From Aestuariivivens sediminis (GTDB lineage Bacteria > Bacteroidota > Bacteroidia > Flavobacteriales > Flavobacteriaceae): 64,000 bases of DNA. Positions within the stretch are counted from its first letter, which is position 1. Each line of letters opens with the position of its first letter. The stretch spans positions 1 to 64,000 of the forward strand of contig NZ_JAKMCP010000003.1 in the NCBI RefSeq assembly GCF_022662105.1, written 5' to 3'. The translations under genes and the position numbers were made by a program. This document shows, piece by piece, positions 1 to 11,296 of this stretch. The notes beneath the pieces were generated by a model, which saw only the letters and a list, made by a program, of their open reading frames with translations, ran no database searches and was not told the origin of the DNA.

Positions 1-127
1 TGGTGCTCCTGCAACGCTCCGCGTTGATAACAGTACAAACAAATTCCTTCGAATGCCATTGGTATTCAGGATTCACCACTCACGTGATGCTCCTGCAACG
101 CTCCGCGTTGATAACAGTACAAACAAA
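1..127. repeat. Two copies of a 43-bp repeat, 84-bp period
   Basis: Bases 1-43 and 85-127 are identical except for one position (base 3 versus 87). Each copy contains the small inverted repeat CAACGC-tcc-GCGTTG. The first copy begins at the window edge, so the array probably extends upstream. It lies just downstream of tRNA-Arg on the minus strand. No coding function is visible. Confidence 0.85.
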
Positions 128-328: not shown

Positions 329-372
329 ATGACTATTGTCATGTTTATCTTCAACTTCATATTTTACTTTTA
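329..372 (+). promoter_or_regulatory. Palindromic operator and promoter of the nickel-transporter gene
   Basis: ATGAC-TATT-GTCAT (329-342) is a 5+4+5 inverted repeat. It is followed after exactly 22 bases by TACTTTTA (365-372), which resembles the Bacteroidota -7 box TAnnTTTG. The gene starts at 407. The same palindrome type and the same 22-base spacing occur at both divergent hydrogenase-locus promoters (9749-9822). The palindrome centre would be near -41, the usual place for a Crp/Fnr-type activator. The sequences and spacing are seen; the regulator class is inferred. Confidence 0.6.
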
Positions 373-406
373 ATTACATAGAAGAATTTTAATTTGTAAA
401 CGTATA

Positions 407-1117
407 GTGGAATCCCTTCCTTTGATTGCAGGGTTAACCGTTGCCCTATTACATGTTGTTACAGGACCTGACCACCTGGCAGCAGTGACCCCTTTCGCCA
501 TAGAATCTAAAAGAAAAGCCTGGAAGATTGGCCTGGCATGGGGGTTGGGACATGTTTTTGGAATGTTATTGATAGGCCTTCTATTTCTCATGTTTAAAGC
601 GTTCATTCCTGTGGATAAAATATCAGCTTATAGCGAGCAACTTGTTGGTCTGACTTTAATAGGAATTGCCTTGTGGGTCTTTTACAGGCTCATTAACCCA
701 AAACATAAACACAAACATTTGCATGTACATATTGAAAATAATCCTTTAATTCACAAGCACGAACATGTACATACCCACCGAGATTCACACCGTCACACCC
801 ATAGCCTGACCTTAAAGCAAACCAAATTTACCTCATTCGCCATTGGTGTTTTACATGGTTTTGCCGGTATAGCCCATTTCTTGATGTTATTACCTGCCTT
901 GGGTTTTCAATCCCTAATGGCTTCCGGAACCTATATTTTTGGTTTCGCCATCGGAATTATCCTGGCCATGACTACCTTTGCCTTTACCATTGGTAAAATT
1001 TCTTCATTTTCAAAACAGGGTCATAATGCCCTATTCTTTAACAGCATTAGAATTGGTGGAGGTGTATTTGCCGCCGTAGTTGGTGTGTATTGGCTGTTAG
1101 GTTTTATGATTTTTTAA
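407..1117 (+). CDS. Nickel transporter-like membrane protein (NiCoT/UreH-like)
   Basis: Predicted inner-membrane metal transporter of 236 residues, most likely supplying or balancing nickel for the neighbouring hydrogenase. The first membrane segment carries HVVTGPDH (H16, D22, H23), resembling the HxxxxDH signature of NiCoT-type nickel/cobalt carriers. A second conserved-looking histidine lies in GVLHGF (about residue 150). A cytoplasmic-type loop at residues 100-132 has 13 histidines. About six membrane segments are visible. GTG at 407 is the only reasonable start before the in-frame stop at 371. The gene runs toward hypE and ends 4 bases from its stop codon. Family membership is fairly clear. 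Nickel specificity and direction of transport are inferred from the histidines and the context. Confidence 0.75.
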   Translation: MESLPLIAGLTVALLHVVTGPDHLAAVTPFAIESKRKAWKIGLAWGLGHVFGMLLIGLLFLMFKAFIPVDKISAYSEQLVGLTLIGIALWVFYRLINPKHKHKHLHVHIENNPLIHKHEHVHTHRDSHRHTHSLTLKQTKFTSFAIGVLHGFAGIAHFLMLLPALGFQSLMASGTYIFGFAIGIILAMTTFAFTIGKISSFSKQGHNALFFNSIRIGGGVFAAVVGVYWLLGFMIF

Positions 1118-1121
1118 AAAG

Positions 1122-2147
1122 TCAACATATTCTTGGAAGTTGTTCTCCTATCAACGGACTTACTATCCGCTTGCCTCCTATCCTACTATTCAAAATGACT
1201 TTAGTGGAATGGGCATCGGTCATTTCGCCAATACAAACTGCCTTAGCCCCTTTTACATCATTATGCATAAAATTAATGACCGAATCTACAATGTCCTTAT
1301 CAACAATCGCAATAAAAATGCCTTCATTGGCCACATAAAGCGGATCCAAACCCAAAATTTCACAGGCCGCTGCAACTTGCTTCTCGATGGGTATTTGGTC
1401 TTCAAAAATGGAAATGCCAATGCCGGTATCCTCAACAATTTCCGTTAAAACACTGGATAGGCCTCCCCTGGTAGGATCGCGTAGGAAATGAATATGATCA
1501 CCAAAAGTATCTAAAAGCCCATTGACTATATCATTCAGATTGGTGGTATCACTCACAATATCGGATTCAAACTCCAGGCCTTGACGTTCAGACATGATGG
1601 CCATCCCATGTGTTGCTATAGACCCGCTTAACACTATCTTATCCCCCGCCTTGATACGACTTGTTGAAATATTGGACTTTGGATGCACCTCACCAAAACC
1701 TGTCGTATTGATAAAAATTTTATCCCCTTTCCCTTTTTCAACAACTTTAGTGTCTCCCGTAATGATTTGAACCCCACTTTGGTCTGCCGCCGCTTTTATG
1801 GTGTTAACAATGCTTATGAATTCTGAAAGTTTTAGCCCTTCTTCAATGATAAAGGCTAAGGATATGTATTTTGGAATGGCTCCACACATGGCCACATCAT
1901 TAACAGTACCATTAACTGCAAGATCACCAATATTTCCTCCTTTGAAAAAGATTGGAGAAACCACGAAACTATCTGTTGAAATGGCTATTTGCCCGTCAAA
2001 TTTTACAATGGCCCCATCATGTTTTTGATCTAAAATGGGATTATTGAAGGTTTCAAATATAATTTTATCCAATAGGTCCCGAGTCATGAGTCCACCGCTG
2101 CCATGTCCTAAATTAATAGTGTCAAAACCAAGATTTTTGATGTCCAT
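1122..2147 (-). CDS. hypE: Hydrogenase maturation protein HypE
   Basis: HypE dehydrates a thiocarboxamide on its C-terminal cysteine to a thiocyanate, the source of the cyanide ligands of the hydrogenase Fe(CN)2CO centre. The 341-residue protein has the AIRS/PurM-like fold signature: glycine-rich GHGSGG near the N terminus and a DPTRGG segment mid-protein. It ends exactly in PRIC, the conserved C-terminal cysteine that HypF carbamoylates. Its ATG immediately follows the hypD stop codon, with no gap, suggesting translational coupling. It is the last gene of the leftward hydrogenase operon. Confidence 0.96.
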   Translation of the reverse strand: MDIKNLGFDTINLGHGSGGLMTRDLLDKIIFETFNNPILDQKHDGAIVKFDGQIAISTDSFVVSPIFFKGGNIGDLAVNGTVNDVAMCGAIPKYISLAFIIEEGLKLSEFISIVNTIKAAADQSGVQIITGDTKVVEKGKGDKIFINTTGFGEVHPKSNISTSRIKAGDKIVLSGSIATHGMAIMSERQGLEFESDIVSDTTNLNDIVNGLLDTFGDHIHFLRDPTRGGLSSVLTEIVEDTGIGISIFEDQIPIEKQVAAACEILGLDPLYVANEGIFIAIVDKDIVDSVINFMHNDVKGAKAVCIGEMTDAHSTKVILNSRIGGKRIVSPLIGEQLPRIC

Positions 2148-3245
2148 TTATTTCGAAAAAATTAAATTATTGGAAAAATGATAATAGGCAGCACAGGCCC
2201 CTTCTGAAGACACCATCGGAGCCCCCAAAGGATTGGAGGGATTACAGTGTTTTCCAAACTCGCTGCATTGATGGGGCTTTTTTATACCTTTAAGTATTTC
2301 GCCTGCTATGCATTTCTTATGTTCAGAAACTTTCAGCCTGTGAATGCCAAATTTTAACTCGGCATCATAGGCCTTATATGCCTCGGTAAGCACATAACCG
2401 CTGTTGGGTATTTCACCTATGCCTCGCCATTCTCTGTTTCCTATCTCAAATACGTCATGGATAACCTTTAAGGCAGCTTCATTTCCGTCCGCCGTTACCA
2501 CCCGTGCATATTGGTTTTCTACCCTGTAGATACCCCTCTCCAATTGGCATACAGCCATATAAATCCCCTGAACCAAATCAAGTGGTTCAAAGCCCGTGAT
2601 GATGATGGGTATCTTATATTTTTCTGCCAATGGCATATAATCCTTGTATCCCATAATGGCACATACATGACCTGCTCCTAAAAAAGCATTGATGTTACAG
2701 AATTCATCATCTAAAATAGCCTCCATGGCCGGAGGAACCAAAACATGGGAGACTAGGATGGAATAATTTGTAACACCCTCTTTTTGAGCTTGTATCACCG
2801 ATAGCGCATTCGCTGGGGCAGTCGTCTCGAATCCAACGGCAAAAAACACCACTTCTTTATGCGGATTTTCCTTAGCAATTCTAACCGCTTCCAAAGGAGA
2901 GTATAACACTCTTAAATCGCCACCATGGGCCTTAGCTTCCAATAGGCTTTTTTTACTTCCTGGTACGCGAATCATATCCCCAAAGGAGCACACAATAACA
3001 TCGTTCTCCAGGAGTTCAACCGCTTTATCGATTAAATTCAGTGGCGTAACACACACCGGGCATCCGGGACCATGGATCATTTGAACCTGATCCGGAAGCA
3101 AATCTAAAATTCCATTTTTAACTAAACCGTGGGTTTGACCTCCACAGACTTCCATGATCTTCCATGTTTTGGTCACTGTATCCCCAATAAGCTGCAAATA
3201 GCGTTTTGTCGCCTCAAAATTTCTGTATTCGCTGAGATATTTCAT
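2148..3245 (-). CDS. hypD: Hydrogenase maturation protein HypD
   Basis: Iron-sulfur scaffold on which, together with HypC, the Fe(CN)2CO unit is built. The 365-residue protein shows the family motifs CGGQTH (C34, H39) and HGPGCPVCVTP (C62, C65). The C-terminal cysteine set that binds a 4Fe-4S cluster includes CSEFGKHC and EGACAAY. The start overlaps the hypF stop as ATGA (3242-3245) and the stop abuts the hypE start, so hypF-hypD-hypE is tightly coupled. Confidence 0.97.
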   Translation of the reverse strand: MKYLSEYRNFEATKRYLQLIGDTVTKTWKIMEVCGGQTHGLVKNGILDLLPDQVQMIHGPGCPVCVTPLNLIDKAVELLENDVIVCSFGDMIRVPGSKKSLLEAKAHGGDLRVLYSPLEAVRIAKENPHKEVVFFAVGFETTAPANALSVIQAQKEGVTNYSILVSHVLVPPAMEAILDDEFCNINAFLGAGHVCAIMGYKDYMPLAEKYKIPIIITGFEPLDLVQGIYMAVCQLERGIYRVENQYARVVTADGNEAALKVIHDVFEIGNREWRGIGEIPNSGYVLTEAYKAYDAELKFGIHRLKVSEHKKCIAGEILKGIKKPHQCSEFGKHCNPSNPLGAPMVSSEGACAAYYHFSNNLIFSK

Positions 3246-5512
3246 TTCGCTGTTTTAATGTTTAAGTAATACATCATCTGGCCAAAAGCAATATTTTCGT
3301 CATTTGGAGATAAGTTACGATTAAAATACAATTTGTAATCCAATTTGGCCATTTCTTTTAACATATCAATCAATACGGTATTTTGAAACACCCCACCACT
3401 CAACACAATAGACCTGATGTTTTGCCTATCGGCCATCTGGAAAATGATATTAGCCAAAGTATACAGGAAATTGACAATGATAGACTCCATATTTACCCCC
3501 TTTTTAAAATCGAAGTAGATCTTTCTTAATATATCCTTAGAGGGTATCATTCCGTTATCGAGAATTGAGGCATACAATGTACTGTGCGCCATATCGTAAT
3601 TATGGATTTGATTTTCAAGTATTATGGCCGCTTCACCTTCATAGGTATTCAAATTACATATGTCGAGTAAAGATGCCACGGCATCAAATAACCTTCCCAC
3701 GGACGAGGTCTTGAGCCTATTCTGTTTTTTTATGGTTTGGTATACCGCCACTTCCTCATTTGTAAATTTTGGTAAGACCTCGTCCATAAGATCATCGGTT
3801 GCCAATGCGAGTAGTGATAGTCTTGGCTCTTTCGACATTTTGTCTCCGGCAAGCCAATCGAAGTATTCAAAATGAGATATCCTATGGATTTCATGTGAAT
3901 TGTACTCAAAAAATTCACCTCCCCAAATATGGCCGTCATCACCGTAGCCTGTTCCATCCCATATAACGCCCAAAATCGGAGTTTCCTTGTCAAAAAGATG
4001 ATGTTCACCCAAAACCGAAGCCAAATGGGCCTTATGGTGCTGAATTTGAATTGAAGGTACTTCAAGGTTCTGTGCCAATTCCTTACCGTATTGGGTAGAA
4101 TGATAGGTTGGATGCGCGTCTACGAGAATAACCGATGGTTTCTCTTCAAAGAGGGTAATAAATTTTGAAACGGTTTCGGTGAGTCGATTGTAAACGTCGG
4201 CATGATTCAGATTACCCAGATATTGACTGATGTATACATAGTCATTCGGTAAAAAAGCCACAGCACTCTTTAAATGGGCTCCCATGGCCAGTATTTTTTC
4301 ATCTGCCTTGAACGTTCCGAAATAATTGGGCGCGTATCCGCGAGACCTTCTGAACAGGACTTTATGACGATACTTTTTACTAAACTTTATCACGGAATCG
4401 TCTTGTGGATTGGATATGGAGAGATTATGATTCAAAAAATAATCAGCGACGCTTTTTAAGGCCTTAAGGGCGAGCTCCGATGAACTTATAATGGGTGAAT
4501 TATGAATATTGCCGCTTGTGGCAACAATGGGACATTCCAATTGATCGGCCAACAAAAGCAACAGGGGTGTGTAGGGCAGCATAACCCCCAATTGATTTAA
4601 GTTTGGTGTTATTTCCTCCAAAGCCAATGGTCCTGAATAATTTTCTTTCGGAATAATGACAATAGGGCTTTCCAATGAGGTCAGTGCTTCTGCGTGTTCC
4701 ACCGATATAGTCATGTGGTCCTTGAGCAAATTTAACGATGGGTAAAGTATGGCGAATGGTTTTTGAGGTCTGTTCTTTCTTTGTCGCAAGGTTTTTACAG
4801 CAGTACCATTTCTCGCATCACAACACAACAAATAACCCGCCGTATTTTTTATGGCAATGATTTGACCTTCCCTTATGAGTTTTGCAATCGTTGTGAATAT
4901 TTGAGAGTTGTCAATAGCCTGTTCTTTTCCATCTGTATCACATAAGCTCATTTGAATACCACATGTTCCACAGGAGTTGGTTTGGGAATGAAAACGCCTA
5001 TTGTTCGGATCGGTATATTCATTTTTACAAGCATCACACATATGGAACGCATCCATAGTCGTATGCTTGCGCTCGAAAGGGAATGTGTTGGTAATGGCCC
5101 ACCGTGGCCCGCAGTTAACACATGTAGTGAAAGGATAGTGGTAACGCTTATTGGTAATATCCAAAATTTCTATCTTACAGTCTTCACAAATGGCGAAATC
5201 TGAAGTAAGCGACAGGTTGAGCTTTCCTGTTTTCTGAGAGGGAACAATACTGAAATCTTCAAATTCAGTATGGGAGATCTCCGTTAATTGATGTGTCTTT
5301 ATTTTTGATAACTTCGGTGGATTTTGAACCAATCCCTTGTAAAACGAGTGGATATTTGATGCTATACCTGATACACATATGATAACCCCGTTCTCATTAT
5401 TCGAAACAGTTCCTTTTAAATTAAAAGTGTTCGCCAATACATAAACAAAGGGTCGAAAACCAACACCCTGAACCAGTCCTGTTATGGTTATTTTATAGGA
5501 TTTAATTGGCAC
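3242..5512 (-). CDS. hypF: Carbamoyltransferase HypF
   Basis: HypF converts carbamoyl phosphate and ATP to carbamoyl-adenylate and transfers the carbamoyl group to the HypE C-terminal cysteine. The 756 residues show all expected parts in order. An acylphosphatase-like domain contains GLVQGVGFRPFVY. Two C-x2-C...C-x2-C zinc motifs follow (CEDC/CVNC and CDAC/CGTC). A YrdC-like domain occupies roughly residues 200-370. The Kae1-like C-terminal half includes HHKAHLASV, DGTGYGDDG and SGGVFQN. Length is normal for the family. It begins 4 bases after the protease gene and overlaps hypD by 4 bases. Confidence 0.97.
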   Translation of the reverse strand: MPIKSYKITITGLVQGVGFRPFVYVLANTFNLKGTVSNNENGVIICVSGIASNIHSFYKGLVQNPPKLSKIKTHQLTEISHTEFEDFSIVPSQKTGKLNLSLTSDFAICEDCKIEILDITNKRYHYPFTTCVNCGPRWAITNTFPFERKHTTMDAFHMCDACKNEYTDPNNRRFHSQTNSCGTCGIQMSLCDTDGKEQAIDNSQIFTTIAKLIREGQIIAIKNTAGYLLCCDARNGTAVKTLRQRKNRPQKPFAILYPSLNLLKDHMTISVEHAEALTSLESPIVIIPKENYSGPLALEEITPNLNQLGVMLPYTPLLLLLADQLECPIVATSGNIHNSPIISSSELALKALKSVADYFLNHNLSISNPQDDSVIKFSKKYRHKVLFRRSRGYAPNYFGTFKADEKILAMGAHLKSAVAFLPNDYVYISQYLGNLNHADVYNRLTETVSKFITLFEEKPSVILVDAHPTYHSTQYGKELAQNLEVPSIQIQHHKAHLASVLGEHHLFDKETPILGVIWDGTGYGDDGHIWGGEFFEYNSHEIHRISHFEYFDWLAGDKMSKEPRLSLLALATDDLMDEVLPKFTNEEVAVYQTIKKQNRLKTSSVGRLFDAVASLLDICNLNTYEGEAAIILENQIHNYDMAHSTLYASILDNGMIPSKDILRKIYFDFKKGVNMESIIVNFLYTLANIIFQMADRQNIRSIVLSGGVFQNTVLIDMLKEMAKLDYKLYFNRNLSPNDENIAFGQMMYYLNIKTAK

Positions 5513-5516
5513 CTTG

Positions 5517-6047
5517 TTATAATTCAGCGGTTAACCGCTTTGTTAACTTAATAATGTCGTCTATGGTTCTGGGTATGGCTTGTTTTACTGTTGTAGATAA
5601 CTCCAGGCTCATTGGAACTACCTCATTGATGGAGATGGTGAACAAATGAATATCCGGTTTGTTTTCCAATAAATATACTGCTTCAATCATATCTTTTAAT
5701 CCAACATCATGAACACTCAGTGCCGATGGAAAATCTGAAGCAAACTTTGGTCGAATTAAGGAAATGGTTCCCTCCTTCTGACCATCCAGGGTTGCATCAA
5801 CAAAAATGACCGCTTTATAGGCCTCAAAGCAATGCAATAACAAAAATCCCCCTGTACCACCATCTAAAATATCCACATTATCGGGTAGTTTCATTGTGGC
5901 CATCTCTTGAATGACATGCACCCCAACACCTTCGTTTCCCATGAGATAGTTTCCGACTCCTAAGATAAGAATGCTTCTTGACTTATCCTTTTCAAAATAA
6001 AAAGCGTCACTACTTACCGCTACGGGTGCTTTCAATGAATCTGTCAT
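5517..6047 (-). CDS. Hydrogenase maturation protease (HyaD/HupD family)
   Basis: Endopeptidase that removes the C-terminal extension of the hydrogenase large subunit after nickel insertion. The sequence ILGVGNYLMGNEGVGVHV is the N-terminal signature. E39, D62 (in DGGTGG) and H113 (in SVHDVGL) fit the three nickel-sensing residues of the HybD/HycI family. Length is 176 residues. The gene lies between the cytochrome b gene and hypF in the same operon. The substrate is inferred to be the large subunit encoded at 6824-8557, the only candidate in the window. Confidence 0.93.
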   Translation of the reverse strand: MTDSLKAPVAVSSDAFYFEKDKSRSILILGVGNYLMGNEGVGVHVIQEMATMKLPDNVDILDGGTGGFLLLHCFEAYKAVIFVDATLDGQKEGTISLIRPKFASDFPSALSVHDVGLKDMIEAVYLLENKPDIHLFTISINEVVPMSLELSTTVKQAIPRTIDDIIKLTKRLTAEL

Positions 6048-6074
6048 AGTTTTTGTAGTTTATATCTCGAACTA

Positions 6075-6809
6075 TTACGAAGTTTCTTTGGTATTTTCTT
6101 GTTCTGGCTCTGTTTTTTTTTGTTTTACGCGCTGTCCAACCACAAATTTATAACCTCCAAACATTGAAGATACTTCCCCTCTACCATCTAGCCAATCGTG
6201 ATAAAATACAAGATAGAGATGTATCAAAACAAATAAGATAAATAGCCAAGTTGAAATATGGTGAATCTTTCTCACCATAAAATCGCTACCAAATAGAGGT
6301 ACTACCCAATCAAAAAGATCGGGCAACCACCAGTCCGACATATCAGAATATAATCCAAAACCCGTAAATATCTGAACCAGAGCGAGCAAGAATAATATAA
6401 AATAAGAAAGCCCCGCAACACTGTTATGACCCACGCTTAAATCAGTGATCTCAGGATGTTTTTTATGTCTCAATAAAATATCAACCTTGAGAACGTGTAA
6501 AAAATTACGCCAACTCTTTCTAGAAAAAGGAAAAAATGATCTCCAGCTGGCAAATTGATTTCCTACAAAAGACCAATAGATCCTCAAAATGAGATTAAAG
6601 AAGAAAATATAGGCCGTCATGAAATGGATAAAACGTACGGTTCCTAACCAAAAAGAATCACTCGCCTCAGCACTGGACAACAGGGCCGGAGGATTGGCAA
6701 TAATAAATCCCGTAACAGCCAAAACAGTTATTGAAATCGCATTAATCCAATGAAAAATTCGAACCGGAAGTTCCCAAACATATACACGTTTATAGTTAAT
6801 TGTTTCCAT
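6075..6809 (-). CDS. Ni/Fe-hydrogenase b-type cytochrome subunit (HyaC/HupC)
   Basis: Membrane diheme cytochrome b that anchors the hydrogenase and passes electrons from the small subunit to the quinone pool. The 244-residue protein starts WELPVRIFHWINA, with heme-ligand candidate H20. Further candidate histidines are H62 in RFIHFMTAY and several in HHISTWLFILFVLIHLYLV. Four hydrophobic segments are visible. The C terminus is charged (KQKKTEPEQEN). The gene follows the large-subunit gene by 14 bases. Confidence 0.94.
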   Translation of the reverse strand: METINYKRVYVWELPVRIFHWINAISITVLAVTGFIIANPPALLSSAEASDSFWLGTVRFIHFMTAYIFFFNLILRIYWSFVGNQFASWRSFFPFSRKSWRNFLHVLKVDILLRHKKHPEITDLSVGHNSVAGLSYFILFLLALVQIFTGFGLYSDMSDWWLPDLFDWVVPLFGSDFMVRKIHHISTWLFILFVLIHLYLVFYHDWLDGRGEVSSMFGGYKFVVGQRVKQKKTEPEQENTKETS

Positions 6810-6823
6810 GATATATGTGTTAT

Positions 6824-8557
6824 CTATATGTCACAACTTGAAATATTTTGTACTTGAGAAATATGATTTCCATGTTCGTCATACAAATGTACGGCACAAG
6901 CGATGCAAGGATCAAAAGAATGAATTGTTCTGAGGATTTCCAAAGGAAGTTCAGGATCTGCTACCGGTGTACCCAGTAAGGTCGATTCGTATGGCGACAA
7001 CTGTCCTTTCGGGTCTCTTGGAGAAGCGTTCCAGGTGGATGGAACCACTAACTGGTAATTCGCTGTTTTCTTGTCTTTTATCCTTATCCAATGTGCCAAG
7101 GATCCTCGAGGGGCTTCACTAAAGCCCACACCCTTTGATTCCGGTTCCCATTTATCCGGATCTCTTTTTTCGGAATGGGCCATTCGAGTATCTCCATTTT
7201 TAATATTGTTCATCAGGGTGTCATAAAATTCCATGGTCCAATTGGCCACTAATTGTGTTTCAATACCCCGAGCAGCTGTTCTTCCCAATGTTGAGAATAG
7301 GGCATCCACAGGCACGTTTAAATGGGTTAAAGCAGCATTAACGACTTCTTGAATTTCTTTATTACCCCTGGCGTAACCCACTAACAATCTGGACAAAGGC
7401 CCTACTTCCATAGGCATACCTTTCCATCGTGGCGTTTTTATGAAACTGTATTTTTCCTCTACATCTATATGATCATAAGGCGGTTTTGGTCCGGAATATT
7501 TGATTTTGGTCTCACCATCCCAGGGATGTCTACCGGTTTCCCGTCCTTCGGCATATTCCTCATACCAGGAATTATTGATGAACTCTTCAATATCATCGTT
7601 ACGGTGATTGACATCATGAACTTTGGATAAATCCCTGTTAAGAATAATACCTTGAGGGAATTTAAAGCTTGAAATATCGTTATACCCATTCGTTGGGAAA
7701 TCACCATAAGACATATAATTGCCAAAACCTTTGCCTATTGCACCCCAATCTTTATAGAACGATGCTATGGCCAATAAATCAGGAATATAAACTTGTTCAA
7801 TAAATGCTTTTCCATCTTTTAATAAATGGCCAACATAGGCCAATCGCTCGGCATTAATACCTCCTATGTCGTCCGTATTTATGGCACAGGCCATTCCACC
7901 CACAAGATAATTCGGATGTGGATTTTTTCCGCCGAAAATGGTATGTACTCGAACAATCTCTTTCTGCCATTCCAGGGCTTCCAAATAATGAGCCACCGCC
8001 ATCAAATTCACTTCAGGTGGTAATTTCATTTGAGGGTGACCCCAATATCCATTAGCAAAAATGCCCAACTGCCCACTTTCTACGAACTTGGTAATACGCT
8101 TTTTAATATCCGAAAAATAACCTGGAGAGCTTTTAGGCCATTTGGAAATACTTTGGGCCAGTTCGGACGTTTTAATGGGGTCGGCTTGTAATGCATTGAC
8201 CACGTCCACCCAATCTAAAGCATGTAAATGATAAAAATGTACCGTATGGTCATGCATGTATAAAGCCCCTTCCATGATATTTCTTACCATTTCCGCATTG
8301 GGCGGAATTTCAATACCAAGAGCATCTTCTACCGATCTTACAGATGCCAAAGCATGTACCGTCGTGCAAACGCCACAGGCCCTCTGTACGAAGGCCCAGA
8401 CATCTCTTGGATCCCTGCCTTTAACAATATTTTCAAGCCCGCGTACCATAGGACTGGAACTATAGGCATCGGTTATTTTACCATCTCTTACTTCTACTTC
8501 AATTCTTAAGTGACCTTCAATTCTTGTGATAGGATCAACGACTATTCTGTTTGCCAT
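6824..8557 (-). CDS. [NiFe]-hydrogenase large subunit, uptake type
   Basis: Catalytic subunit carrying the NiFe(CN)2CO site of a membrane-bound H2-uptake hydrogenase, 577 residues. The N-terminal metal motif RACGVC has C61 and C64. The C-terminal motif DPCIACAVH has C551, C554 and H557, so all four metal cysteines are present. By family knowledge the maturation protease cuts after H557, removing a 20-residue tail that ends SSCDI. RIEGHLRIE near the start is also typical. It is co-transcribed with the small subunit (12-base gap) and cytochrome b. The overall sequence resembles HyaB/HupL (group 1). Confidence 0.97.
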   Translation of the reverse strand: MANRIVVDPITRIEGHLRIEVEVRDGKITDAYSSSPMVRGLENIVKGRDPRDVWAFVQRACGVCTTVHALASVRSVEDALGIEIPPNAEMVRNIMEGALYMHDHTVHFYHLHALDWVDVVNALQADPIKTSELAQSISKWPKSSPGYFSDIKKRITKFVESGQLGIFANGYWGHPQMKLPPEVNLMAVAHYLEALEWQKEIVRVHTIFGGKNPHPNYLVGGMACAINTDDIGGINAERLAYVGHLLKDGKAFIEQVYIPDLLAIASFYKDWGAIGKGFGNYMSYGDFPTNGYNDISSFKFPQGIILNRDLSKVHDVNHRNDDIEEFINNSWYEEYAEGRETGRHPWDGETKIKYSGPKPPYDHIDVEEKYSFIKTPRWKGMPMEVGPLSRLLVGYARGNKEIQEVVNAALTHLNVPVDALFSTLGRTAARGIETQLVANWTMEFYDTLMNNIKNGDTRMAHSEKRDPDKWEPESKGVGFSEAPRGSLAHWIRIKDKKTANYQLVVPSTWNASPRDPKGQLSPYESTLLGTPVADPELPLEILRTIHSFDPCIACAVHLYDEHGNHISQVQNISSCDI

Positions 8558-8569
8558 AATAATTTATTT

Positions 8570-9697
8570 TTAAGAATCCAATGCTTTTTCGTTTTCTTTT
8601 CCTCTCGAGATACTTTCCTTTAGTTCCTTCTTCTTCGAAATATTCGCAGCTACGGCATGTGCTGCCAGGCCACCGGCTACGACACCGGCTGCTACTTTAC
8701 CTATGGTATCTGCAGAACTTTCTATACCAAAACCATGCAGACCGGTTAATCGTTCATACAATGGACCATTATCCCAGAAGTTTTCCTCGCTACAGCCAAA
8801 ACAACCATGGCCGGATTGAATGGGATAACTTACACCATTATTCCATTTAATTGTTCCACAAGCATTGTAGGTCATTGGACCCTTACATCCTACCCTGTAA
8901 AGACAATACCCTTTTTTAGCGTTTTCATCATCAAAGGATTCCACAAACAGACCAGCATCGTAATAGGATCTCCTGTAACAGGTATCATGAACCCGTTTGG
9001 AGTAGAATGCTTTGGGTCTTCCAATTCTATCCAATTCCGGTAATTTACCAAAGGCTACCAAATGAACTATGACCCCAGCCATAACTTCCCCAATTGGCGG
9101 ACATCCCGGTACACGTACTATGGGCTTATTTTTGATTATTTTGTGAATTGGTGTGGCCCCGGTTGGATTGGGGTAGGCCGCTTGAACACAACCATTGGAT
9201 GCACAACTTCCCCAACAAATAATTGCTTTTGCTCCTTCGGCTGCCTCCAATAGAATATCCTTTGCAGATCTTCCTCCAATACAGCAATAATTTCCATCGT
9301 CACCTATAGGTACAGATCCTTCAACGCAAAGAATATACGCTCCTTTATGCTTATCCATCGTCGCCTTTTTCGCAGCTTCTGCCTGATGTCCGGAAGCAGC
9401 CATTAAGGTCAAGGTATAATCTAAAGATATTTTGTCCAATATAATATCGGCAACAATGGGATGATCTGATCTAATAAAGGATTCACTGCAGCAAGTACAC
9501 TCTTGAAAATGTTCCCAAATAACGGGGACTCTATAGCTTGTCTCAAGAGCCTTGGCCACTTGACCAACCATGGAATTTTCCAATCCCAAATATGCACTGA
9601 TATACGTAACGAACTTCATAAAATCCCGTCTGGAATACCCTTGCTTTATGATGCTTTCGTAATACGTGCTTTCTTTTGTTTCATTTTTTGTAATCAT
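8570..9697 (-). CDS. [NiFe]-hydrogenase small subunit, oxygen-tolerant type
   Basis: Electron-transfer subunit with three iron-sulfur clusters, 375 residues. A twin-arginine signal SRRDFMK (residues 22-28) implies export of the folded heterodimer. The proximal cluster motif reads ECTCCSES (C67, C69, C70), with C165 and C170 in WGSCASNGC and C199 in VPGCPP. Cysteines at the C69 and C170 positions, where oxygen-sensitive enzymes carry glycine, mark the 4Fe-3S cluster of oxygen-tolerant group 1d enzymes such as E. coli Hyd-1. Distal and medial cluster residues follow (H237, C240, C265, C271; C280, C299, C302). A glycine/alanine-rich hydrophobic anchor lies near residues 331-351. Confidence 0.97.
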
Positions 9698-9748
9698 GAT
9701 GGAAAGTTGAGTTTAGAAGCTTTGAACTTAATTTTAAAGTAATCGTTT

Positions 9749-9822
9749 TAAATATATCCAATAAAAAGGGTAGAAAACATGATTTAAATCATATTTACCG
9801 AACCGTTATTAGGATAACTTTA
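9749..9822. promoter_or_regulatory. Divergent hydrogenase/hyp control region with 14-bp palindrome
   Basis: ATGATTTAAATCAT at 9779-9792 is a perfect palindrome (ATGAT-N4-ATCAT). TAACTTTA (9815-9822) lies 22 bases to the right and serves hypA. On the minus strand TATATTTA (9756 to 9749) lies 22 bases to the left and serves the small-subunit operon. Both boxes match TAnnTTTA, close to the Bacteroidota -7 consensus. One symmetric site could therefore control both directions at about -41. A second, weaker minus-strand promoter candidate is TTG (9761-9759), 17 bases, TACTTTAA (9741-9734). Confidence 0.65.
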
Positions 9823-9858: not shown

Positions 9859-10200
9859 ATGCATGAATTATCGGTAGCTATGGGCATTGTGAAAATTGCC
9901 GAAGATGTGGTTGAAAAAGAAAAGGCAAAATCAGTGGACCTGATTGAACTGGAAATCGGAATCTTGGCCGGAATTGAATTTGATTCCTTAGATTTTGTTT
10001 GGGAATCTGCTGTTAAAAACACGGTATTGGAACATGCCAAAAAACGTATTAACCGTATTAAAGGTGAGGCCAGGTGTGCGGACTGTGATACTGTTTTTGA
10101 ACTCCAACATCTTTATGATTCCTGTCCGGAATGCCACAGCAATTTTAAAGGAATTTTAAAGGGAAAAGAATTAAGGGTAAAAGCCCTGGAAATAATTTAA
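9859..10200 (+). CDS. hypA: Hydrogenase nickel-insertion protein HypA
   Basis: Nickel metallochaperone that works with HypB to load nickel into the large subunit. The 113-residue protein begins MHELSVAM, whose H2 is the nickel ligand. A structural zinc site is formed by CADC (C73, C76) and CPEC (C89, C92). It is the first gene of the rightward hypABC operon and diverges from the hydrogenase structural operon across a 161-bp control region. hypB follows after 13 bases. Confidence 0.97.
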   Translation: MHELSVAMGIVKIAEDVVEKEKAKSVDLIELEIGILAGIEFDSLDFVWESAVKNTVLEHAKKRINRIKGEARCADCDTVFELQHLYDSCPECHSNFKGILKGKELRVKALEII

Positions 10201-10213
10201 ACCTATTTTTGCT

Positions 10214-11038
10214 ATGTGTGGAACTTGCGGTTGTGGAAACGGAGAAAACAGGATGACCATTACCAATCCCTTGGAAGTCAAATTACATGACCATGGACAT
10301 CACCATGGGCATGATCATGATCATCATTCCCATGAACATCATCACGCTCATGACCATGATCACAGCCATGTACACGAACACTCACATTCAAAAGTAGTGA
10401 AGATTGAGCAGGACATTCTCCAGCAAAATGATATCATGGCCGCTAGAAACAGAGGTTATTTTGAGGCTCTAAACATTTTTGCCATTAACCTGGTGAGTTC
10501 ACCGGGATCGGGAAAGACCACATTGTTAGAACGGACCCTAAAGGATTTAAAACATGAGCTGTCATTTTATGTCATAGAGGGCGATCAGCAGACCCTGAAT
10601 GATGCTCATAGAATTTCAGCACTCGACATTCCGGTAATCCAGATTAATACAGGAAAAGGGTGTCATTTAGAAAGTGATATGGTTTATGAGGCCGTTAAAA
10701 AATTAGAGGTTAAAAACAACGCTGTTTTAATGATTGAAAATGTGGGTAATCTGGTATGTCCATCCATGTTCGATTTGGGTGAAAACAAGCGTGTTGTAGT
10801 CATCAGCACAACGGAGGGTGTCGATAAACCCATAAAATATCCCGACATGTTCCATAGCTCGGATATCTGCATTATCAATAAAATAGATTTATTGCCGTAT
10901 CTCGATATCGATATTTCGAAGCTCAAACAAAATGGGTTAAAAGTAAATCCAAACTTGATTTTCCTTGAAGTGTCCGCAACAACAGGTGAGGGTATGCAAG
11001 ATTGGTATACCTGGCTGAAAGAACATAAGATAAAATAA
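10214..11038 (+). CDS. hypB: Hydrogenase nickel-incorporation GTPase HypB, His-rich form
   Basis: SIMIBI-class GTPase that delivers nickel with HypA. The N terminus MCGTCGC provides the C-x2-C-G-C high-affinity nickel motif (C2, C5, C7). Residues 25-58 contain 20 histidines in 34 positions, typical of HypB forms that also store nickel. The P-loop SSPGSGKTT is at about 95-103. The family's metal-site cysteine and histidine lie in GKGCHLESDM, and NKIDLLPY is the guanine-specificity motif. 274 residues. HypC starts 9 bases downstream. Confidence 0.97.
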   Translation: MCGTCGCGNGENRMTITNPLEVKLHDHGHHHGHDHDHHSHEHHHAHDHDHSHVHEHSHSKVVKIEQDILQQNDIMAARNRGYFEALNIFAINLVSSPGSGKTTLLERTLKDLKHELSFYVIEGDQQTLNDAHRISALDIPVIQINTGKGCHLESDMVYEAVKKLEVKNNAVLMIENVGNLVCPSMFDLGENKRVVVISTTEGVDKPIKYPDMFHSSDICIINKIDLLPYLDIDISKLKQNGLKVNPNLIFLEVSATTGEGMQDWYTWLKEHKIK

Positions 11039-11047
11039 CCAACACTC

Positions 11048-11296
11048 ATGTGCTTATCCATACCCGGTAAATTAATAGCCATAACATCACAGTTGGATGA
11101 CACTTTTAGAATTGGAAAAGTGTCCTTTGACGGTGTTATTAAAGAAGTGAATTTAACCTTGGTACCCGAAGCTAAAATTGGTGATTATGTCATGGTACAT
11201 GTAGGGGCTGCCATTAGCATTGTTAACGAAGAGGAGGCCAAGAAAACTTTCGAAATACTGAAGCAGCTGGGCGATTTAGATGATCTGGATACCTAG
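11048..11296 (+). CDS. hypC: Hydrogenase assembly chaperone HypC
   Basis: Small chaperone that holds the Fe(CN)2CO unit with HypD and carries it to the large-subunit precursor. 82 residues beginning MCLSIPGK; after removal of the first Met, C2 is the essential ligand. It is the only HypC/HybG-type protein in the window and the last gene of hypABC. A strong terminator follows at 11380-11405. Confidence 0.96.
   Translation: MCLSIPGKLIAITSQLDDTFRIGKVSFDGVIKEVNLTLVPEAKIGDYVMVHVGAAISIVNEEEAKKTFEILKQLGDLDDLDT

Follow-up and report, generated by a model that had tools for sequence, protein, structure and literature searches.

A palindromic operator at fixed distance from the promoters of the Aestuariivivens sediminis hydrogenase locus, a probable mark of an Fnr-type class II regulon in Flavobacteriaceae

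Operators at the hydrogenase locus

The window analyzed here, i.e., the whole stretch of 64,000 nucleotides at positions 1 to 64,000 of contig NZ_JAKMCP010000003.1 of Aestuariivivens sediminis, carries the genes of a [NiFe]-hydrogenase and its maturation proteins, together with a putative nickel/cobalt transporter gene (Table 1). Sequence analysis led to two palindromes of the form ATGAY-N4-RTCAT, one upstream of the transporter gene and one between the divergent hydrogenase and hyp operons. In three directions a -7-type box of the form TAnnTTT follows after a gap of 22 bp. An earlier sequence-only reading had claimed these two palindromes and three gaps, and its coordinates are all correct to the base. 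We consider that the palindromes are probably operators of an Fnr-type class II activator regulon that extends across the Flavobacteriaceae, as judged by the named relatives, with an Fnr-type protein as their likely reader and low oxygen as the probable signal.

Table 1. Operators, promoter boxes and genes in the first part of the window (strand +, - or, for palindromes, a dot).
Feature	Position	Strand	Remarks
Palindromic operator ATGACTATTGTCAT	329-342	.	Upstream of NicO/HupE-like gene
-7-type box TACTTTTA	365-372	+	Gap 343-364 = 22 bp from ATGACTATTGTCAT
Putative nickel/cobalt transporter (NicO/HupE-like)	407-1117	+	GTG start codon, replaced by ATG in same-genus genome G219
hypE	1122-2147	-	TIGR02124
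hypD	2148-3245	-	TIGR00075
hypF	3242-5512	-	TIGR00143
Hydrogenase maturation protease	5517-6047	-	TIGR00072
b-type cytochrome subunit	6075-6809	-	TIGR02125
[NiFe]-hydrogenase large subunit	6824-8557	-	NF007550, E 6e-209, bits below equivalog cut-off
[NiFe]-hydrogenase small subunit, HyaA-like	8570-9697	-	TIGR00391, E 1.2e-143
-7-type box TATATTTA facing hyaA	9756-9749	-	Gap 9757-9778 = 22 bp from ATGATTTAAATCAT
Palindromic operator ATGATTTAAATCAT	9779-9792	.	Common to divergent hydrogenase and hyp operons
-7-type box TAACTTTA facing hypA	9815-9822	+	22 bp from ATGATTTAAATCAT
hypA	9859-10200	+	TIGR00100
hypB	10214-11038	+	TIGR00073
Putative hypC, 82-aa open reading frame at the expected hypC position	11048-11296	+	Open reading frame call only

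Both search patterns, the palindrome and TAnnTTT, were taken from the original observation itself. The window has four copies of the palindrome pattern where 0.47 would be expected from shuffling, a number reached in none of 100 shuffles. The other two copies, at 10311 and 30421, do not resemble operators of this type; the former lies within the His-rich codons of hypB, and no TAnnTTT was found at a gap of 10-40 from either of them. The earlier statement that the window lacks a regulator gene is confirmed for the Crp/Fnr family, the one regulator family that was searched for, as none of the seven PF13545 matches of the genome falls within it.

Genome-wide spacing rule and promoter geometry

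Genome analysis showed 60 copies of ATGAYN4RTCAT in the 3.93-Mb genome, compared with 12 of the reversed pattern. When TAnnTTT was required at a gap of 10-40, 44 matches were left against six for the reversed control. Their gap histogram is sharply peaked: 25 at 22, four at 23 and one at 21, with 14 spread across the other 28 gaps (0.5 per gap). Excluding the three of the window, 22 gap-22 matches are left. The boxes at gap 22 lie at most 70 nt upstream of the start of an open reading frame (ORF) in 20 of 25 cases, compared with 280 of 1927 (15%) when every TAnnTTT box of these 273 kb is counted, and the two central palindrome bases are A or T in all 25 aligned sites. At base 8 of the box, directly after TAnnTTT, 16 of these 25 promoters have A and six have G, while the general flavobacterial box has the consensus TAnnTTTG (PMC9723704).

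The flavobacterial -7 box has been placed at -12 to -5 (PMC9723704). With a gap of 22 bp the palindrome therefore occupies -48 to -35 and is centred at -41.5, in agreement with the sequence-only reading, which had put it near -41, the class II position of Crp/Fnr proteins. A site near -41.5 with fixed spacing to the box is what characterizes class II promoters, and 25 of the 44 matches present it. A TTG at spacer 18-19 was found in one of the 25 gap-22 promoters; 31 control boxes from ordinary promoters are likewise without TTG enrichment, which leaves this test without power, and the missing -33 element was dropped as support.

The earlier expectation of an operator specific to hydrogenase-related promoters was not borne out, and such an operator is ruled out by a genome-wide regulon of about 25 promoters. 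The genome-wide motif search that had been proposed does place the motif before other genes as well, yet the sites at these unrelated genes keep the 22-bp spacing, which points to a global regulon rather than to noise. The spacing is therefore the rule of that regulon.

Regulon content

Behind the gap-22 sites of the genome lie ccoS-ccoNO of the cbb3 oxidase (FixS, COX1 and FixO), a hemN-like radical-SAM gene and PPDK. CBS-domain proteins follow such sites twice directly and once at 523 nt. Further genes encode an MlaE permease, a thioredoxin-like protein, a cytochrome c, a 4Fe-4S/NrfD pair, a TonB-C protein and a PAS protein, and an ABC1-kinase-like gene stands second behind a site. A DnaJ-like ORF also follows a gap-22 site; DnaG primase, an EF-G-like protein and a glycosyltransferase are less expected members, and SucA lies 357 nt behind a gap-23 site. 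The Pfam run within the cco cluster covered ccoS and ccoNO; the names hemN, DnaJ, ccoI, ccoQ, ccoP and ccoG, as well as those of the universal stress proteins below, were given by eye from sequence. The cbb3 oxidase and oxygen-independent haem synthesis are targets of Fnr-type low-oxygen regulators in other phyla, and genes of this kind belong to many Fnr regulons. Concerning flavobacteria, oxygen limitation induces the cbb3 oxidase and haem synthesis in F. psychrophilum (PMC9723704).

Two side observations were made on these sites. The gap-22 site at G000:C7:238518 (G000 being the A. sediminis genome) precedes a 482-aa protein with three PAS stretches (L061:13626-15074), in which no kinase domain was found by Pfam at E ≤ 1e-5; its homologue in G154 likewise has a gap-22 site. 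Moreover, gap-22 sites stand before ORFs that start like universal stress proteins (MKNILLPTDFSEN...) in L270, L279, L280 and L281 (G154, G032, G119 and G125, respectively), of which L270 is the region around an fnr gene and L279-L281 are regions around the receiver fusion gene discussed below.

Conservation in related genomes

For the comparison with relatives the best 80 hydrogenase loci were used with flanks of up to 10 kb, and the 79 with 300 bp of upstream sequence were counted (L086, which has less, was dropped). The family and genus placement of the genomes is putative and the genomes are phylogenetically non-independent. The hydrogenase itself is patchy, its small subunit (E ≤ 1e-60) being present in 22 of 299 sampled genomes of the same family. 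An exact palindrome lies upstream of hyaA in 37 of the 79 loci (0.12 in shuffles), and 23 combine it with gap 22 towards hyaA (0.02 in shuffles). With at most one mismatch and TAnnTTT at gap 22, the number rises to 31. Of the 29 relatives outside Lutibacter that are at least 80% identical, 26 keep site (at most one mismatch) and gap; among the more distant loci both occur in 5 of 35, and the palindrome with at most one mismatch in 22 of 35, Chitinophagaceae included. In G219, palindrome and spacing are kept in all three directions, with an identical NicO site and TATATTGA as the hyaA box. A good NicO match was obtained at 40 loci, and at 36 of them the gene occupies the same convergent place.

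Regarding the genes of the locus, the product of 407-1117 gives a weak match to the nickel/cobalt efflux transporter model (28.6 of 195 bits, far below the cut-off) and also a DsbD_2 match, and its genomic context suggests a nickel transporter. The small subunit carries the ECTCCSESF and GCVQ cysteines, which we take to be those of the O2-tolerant Hyd-1 type. Additionally, a stretch of about 40 bases (tgctcctgcaacgctccgcgttgataacagtacaaacaaa) is present twice at the contig start (window 1-127), before a tRNA-Arg gene, and window 11320-11465 matches G219 at several overlapping positions close to tRNA-Pro/tRNA-Ser genes, suggesting a local repeat.

The Fnr-type candidate regulator

One of the PF13545 proteins is a 225-aa Crp/Fnr protein encoded outside the window (G000:C9:41942-42616), divergently from genes resembling ccoI, ccoS, ccoNO, ccoQ, ccoP and ccoG. 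It belongs to the Crp/Fnr superfamily, with PF00027 at 66.9 bits and PF13545 at 61.3 bits, both above the cut-off, and among solved structures it matches best the Crp/Fnr-family regulator 2gau, followed by FNR-type regulator chains. We examined 46 orthologues, its own sequence included (16 matches from family genomes and the best-scoring 30 of 41 from hydrogenase genomes). A palindrome with at most one mismatch lies within 250 bp upstream of the gene in all 46, and it is exact in 33; such a palindrome is expected by chance in about 6% of 300-bp stretches (4.56/79). A gap-22 or gap-23 site stands before ccoS in 7 of 10 fetched fnr regions and in the A. sediminis genome as well.

All 46 orthologues share Cys4, Cys7, Cys53 and Cys106, and when solved FNR-type chains are aligned by phmmer, Cys4, Cys7 and Cys106 fall on cluster cysteines of FNR, namely C20, C23 and C122 in E. 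coli numbering. The recognition helix reads TE--IR in all 46. The Glu and Arg of the FNR/CRP recognition helix read the TGA core of the site, and both the Glu/Arg pair and the TGA core are kept here, while E--IR and ATGAY-N4-RTCAT are not the canonical FNR helix and site. The position of Ser212 in FNR is occupied by Ile. The A at half-site position 1 would fit this changed helix. For the Glu/Arg pair, R180/E181 in PMC1274295 may be compared.

A regulator gene close to the hydrogenase in relatives was considered and rejected, no Fnr-type match at E ≤ 1e-8 being found in the 80 hydrogenase loci. Concerning the remaining Crp/Fnr proteins of the genome, L020 and L021 look unlikely as readers, being without the E--IR helix and without an upstream palindrome; L022 has a stop in frame, and L016 (E--NR) and L018 (E--IR) have a one-mismatch site upstream.

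Exceptions and alternative explanations

Several observations weigh against a family-wide regulon under the Fnr-type protein. None of the 15 Lutibacter-like loci (L090, L091, L093, L094, L098, L104, L108, L110, L111, L112, L117-L120 and L142; L111 and L119 were placed by eye from a shared promoter element) has a gap-22 site at hyaA, and the Fnr-type gene is present in all 11 Lutibacter-like genomes searched, with an exact palindrome before it in the seven fnr loci fetched. A change of regulator is likely at these hydrogenase promoters. By eye, their hyaA upstream regions have another element in common, close to TTATTTTAAAACATTCTAAATTA, and the divergent hypA/hyaA layout is kept in the loci looked at.

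The other two directions of the locus also count against it. Among 46 NicO homologues from relatives (39 at least 43% identical, seven distant ones at 25-30% identity), an exact palindrome lies within 250 bp upstream in two and gap 22 is found in one, and the hypA-facing box is at gap 22 in 8 of 73 relatives, i.e., it is partly kept. The NicO site, rare beyond the genus, was dropped as a conserved feature. The comparison with relatives upholds site and spacing at hyaA, the hypA box in part and the NicO site hardly outside the genus. It looks as if the hydrogenase structural operon were the broadly conserved target and nickel supply a genus-level addition. The suggestion that a regulator coordinates nickel supply, maturation and enzyme synthesis retains the Crp/Fnr-type class II site at hyaA, and its nickel link looks local to the genus.

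Concerning the regulator, the canonical four cysteines of FNR are not all present: the C29 equivalent is not Cys, and the invariant Cys53 stands elsewhere. Because C29 is not conserved, oxygen sensing by the classical FNR cluster is not established, and the protein is called Fnr-type and not FNR. At ccoS, a gap-22/23 site is missing from three of the 10 fnr regions. Among distant homologues (L191-L204, 11 of 14 parsed) one has an exact palindrome upstream, three have a one-mismatch palindrome and seven have none; since most of them are without it, the link between operator and regulator gene is a family-level feature. In the co-occurrence search, which covered 50 of the 80 hydrogenase genomes, nine had no Fnr-type match better than 1e-45, and three of these nine, all metagenome-assembled genomes (MAGs), carry site and gap 22 at the hydrogenase. 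Finally, DnaG primase, the EF-G-like protein and SucA (gap 23) are no obvious low-oxygen genes.

That a single regulator reads the operator, as first suggested, is uncertain, as three proteins of the genome have the same E--IR recognition helix. The second of them is a fusion of receiver (REC), cNMP and Crp domains (G000:C1:77781-78836). If it read the operator mainly or in addition, the hydrogenase would answer a two-component signal instead of, or besides, an oxygen sensor, a possibility that we regard as real and clearly below even chances. It draws on the recognition residues shared with the Fnr-type protein, and on the genome G383, which encodes the fusion and in which, with all candidates scored, Fnr-type matches over an Fnr-like length do not exceed 33% identity. 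There the fusion gene directly precedes ccoI-hemN-ccoS-ccoNO, and ccoS has a gap-22 site (L277, G383:C3:285000-304900), although G383 also encodes an L018-type Crp/Fnr protein (E--IR, N-terminal CxxCxxxxC) that could read this site instead. Gap-22 sites also lie near the fusion in contig C1 of A. sediminis and in G032, G119 and G125, while G174 has the fusion and no gap-22 site in the surrounding 20 kb. The three MAGs that keep the hydrogenase site with gap 22 show fusion-length matches only; conversely, Muriicola jejuensis (exact) and Robertkochia sp. 3YJGBD-33 (one mismatch) have hydrogenase site and gap 22 with the Fnr-type protein only, without a fusion match at E ≤ 1e-12.

A survey of 198 Bacteroidota genomes was also informative. 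Gap-22 matches are present in every one of the 19 genomes of the same family and add up to 156, vs. one for the reversed control. The remaining 179 genomes include 36 with such matches, between one and seven each (69 altogether vs. nine). Of the 19 family genomes, 16 encode an Fnr-type orthologue (E ≤ 1e-70) and 12 a fusion orthologue. Among the 16 with the Fnr-type protein, nine that also have the fusion carry 4-26 gap-22 sites, compared with 2-5 in the seven without it, which favors a part for the fusion. Among 20 genomes outside the family that encode the fusion, however, 19 have 0-3 sites and one has seven, and none of the 23 fusion loci that could be parsed, out of 30, has an exact palindrome within 250 bp upstream. 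As the orthologue counts rested on part of the candidates in some genomes, ten family genomes were rechecked with all candidates: seven are Fnr-type-only (no fusion-length match), and G383, G174 and G160 are fusion-only, their Fnr-type matches not exceeding 35% identity. The operator may therefore have more than one reader, with the Fnr-type protein as the more likely general binder.

The third E--IR protein, L018 (G000:C7, match 271632-271844), is an unlikely reader. It combines the same helix with an N-terminal CxxCxxxxC, and the similar G383 protein has CNNCLNTNC and E--IR; yet in A. sediminis its gene has only a one-mismatch palindrome, 142 bp upstream, and the G383 gene has none within 300 bp.

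Even less probable is a repressor operator or an insulator in place of a class II activator site. Crp/Fnr proteins also repress, and a palindrome alone cannot separate activation from repression; the fixed spacing in 25 of 44 matches and the -41.5 centre are nevertheless the geometry of activators, and a repressor site would tolerate many positions. Chance or composition, i.e., short AT-rich palindromes near AT-rich boxes, can practically be set aside, for although TAnnTTT alone is weak (1927 in 273 kb), the counts against the reversed patterns in the genome and in the 19 family genomes, the gap histogram and the conservation in 79 loci against shuffles all speak against it.

Proposed mechanism and comparison with known systems

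Under the Fnr-type reading, a Crp/Fnr-family dimer would bind ATGAY-N4-RTCAT centred at -41.5 and would activate, from the class II position, a sigma-A promoter whose TAnnTTT box lies 22 bp away, and at the divergent hydrogenase/hyp region activation would face both ways. The 225-aa protein beside the cbb3-oxidase genes is the most likely regulator; it probably autoregulates through the same kind of operator and probably senses low oxygen via an Fe-S cluster. Scarce oxygen would then induce the hydrogenase along with the high-affinity cbb3 oxidase and haem synthesis. The motif, its spacing and conservation, the operator's presence at the regulator gene and the content of the regulon were shown by computation, whereas binding, activation, autoregulation, the Fe-S cluster and oxygen as signal are inferred from them.

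More tentatively, the Flavobacteriaceae could share one class II operator with interchangeable regulators, namely an Fnr-type protein in which Cys53 replaces Cys29 of FNR and a REC-cNMP-Crp fusion able to replace it at the cbb3 locus. The result would be a DosR-like regulon for low oxygen and persistence, comprising universal stress proteins, CBS proteins, PPDK and cbb3 oxidase, into which the uptake hydrogenase is wired. We put forward this wider picture as possible and no more than that.

With FNR (PDB 5cvr/9qlt) the candidate shares the Crp fold, the N-terminal CxxC, a Cys aligned with C122 and the TGA-N6-TCA core palindrome. The promoters share the -41.5 centre and the 22 bp from site to box with FNR class II promoters, this being the geometry of E. 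coli class II promoters. FNR binds an oxygen-labile [4Fe-4S] cluster and has the recognition helix E--SR and the site TTGAT-N4-ATCAA, whereas here the helix is E--IR and the half-site starts with A (ATGAY vs. TTGAT); C29 is absent, an invariant Cys53 is new and the promoter is of the Bacteroidota TAnnTTT type. Rhizobial FnrN/FixK control hyp and fixNOQP genes, so that there too one low-oxygen Crp/Fnr regulator couples hydrogenase maturation genes with the cbb3 oxidase, although phylum, operator sequence and promoter class are different. HcpR, DNR and NnrR are also of the Crp/Fnr family, with N4-centred palindromes such as TTGACnnnnGTCAA, and a co-variation of operator and helix has been described (PMC1274295). 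In contrast to the regulon presented here, HcpR2 controls hcp genes only in most Bacteroides and in Porphyromonas gingivalis; the common HcpR2 motif is GTAACnnnnGTTAC, P. gingivalis has another one, and ATGAC at the start of a word is absent from the main text of that paper (PMC1274295).

Significance

The Fnr-type class II operator is real and well supported; it is ordinary in kind and, as far as the literature was searched, new in lineage, sequence and regulators. No flavobacterial description of the ATGAY-N4-RTCAT motif was recognized among the literature matches listed, subscription papers being mostly outside the search. For Crp/Fnr homologues of Flavobacteriales, carbon sensing has been predicted from Bacteroides MalR sites (PMC8510549). 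For an apparent low-oxygen control in Flavobacteriaceae, the present analysis supplies the operator, the rule of its spacing and candidates for the regulator.

It also touches a question on the hydrogenase of Robiginitalea biformata, an organism that encodes an uptake hydrogenase of group 1l and did not substantially consume H2 in culture (PMC10305171). The authors of that study left undecided whether the enzyme is broken or requires "very specific conditions" to be active. A one-mismatch site with gap 22 is present in all four hydrogenase loci fetched from Robiginitalea (L095, L097, L100 and L114), R. biformata itself, with its group 1l enzyme, lying outside the 80-locus sample. Since the Robiginitalea loci carry site and gap, low oxygen would be a direct test. 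If the proposed control is true, Flavobacteriaceae may make their hydrogenase mainly when oxygen runs low.

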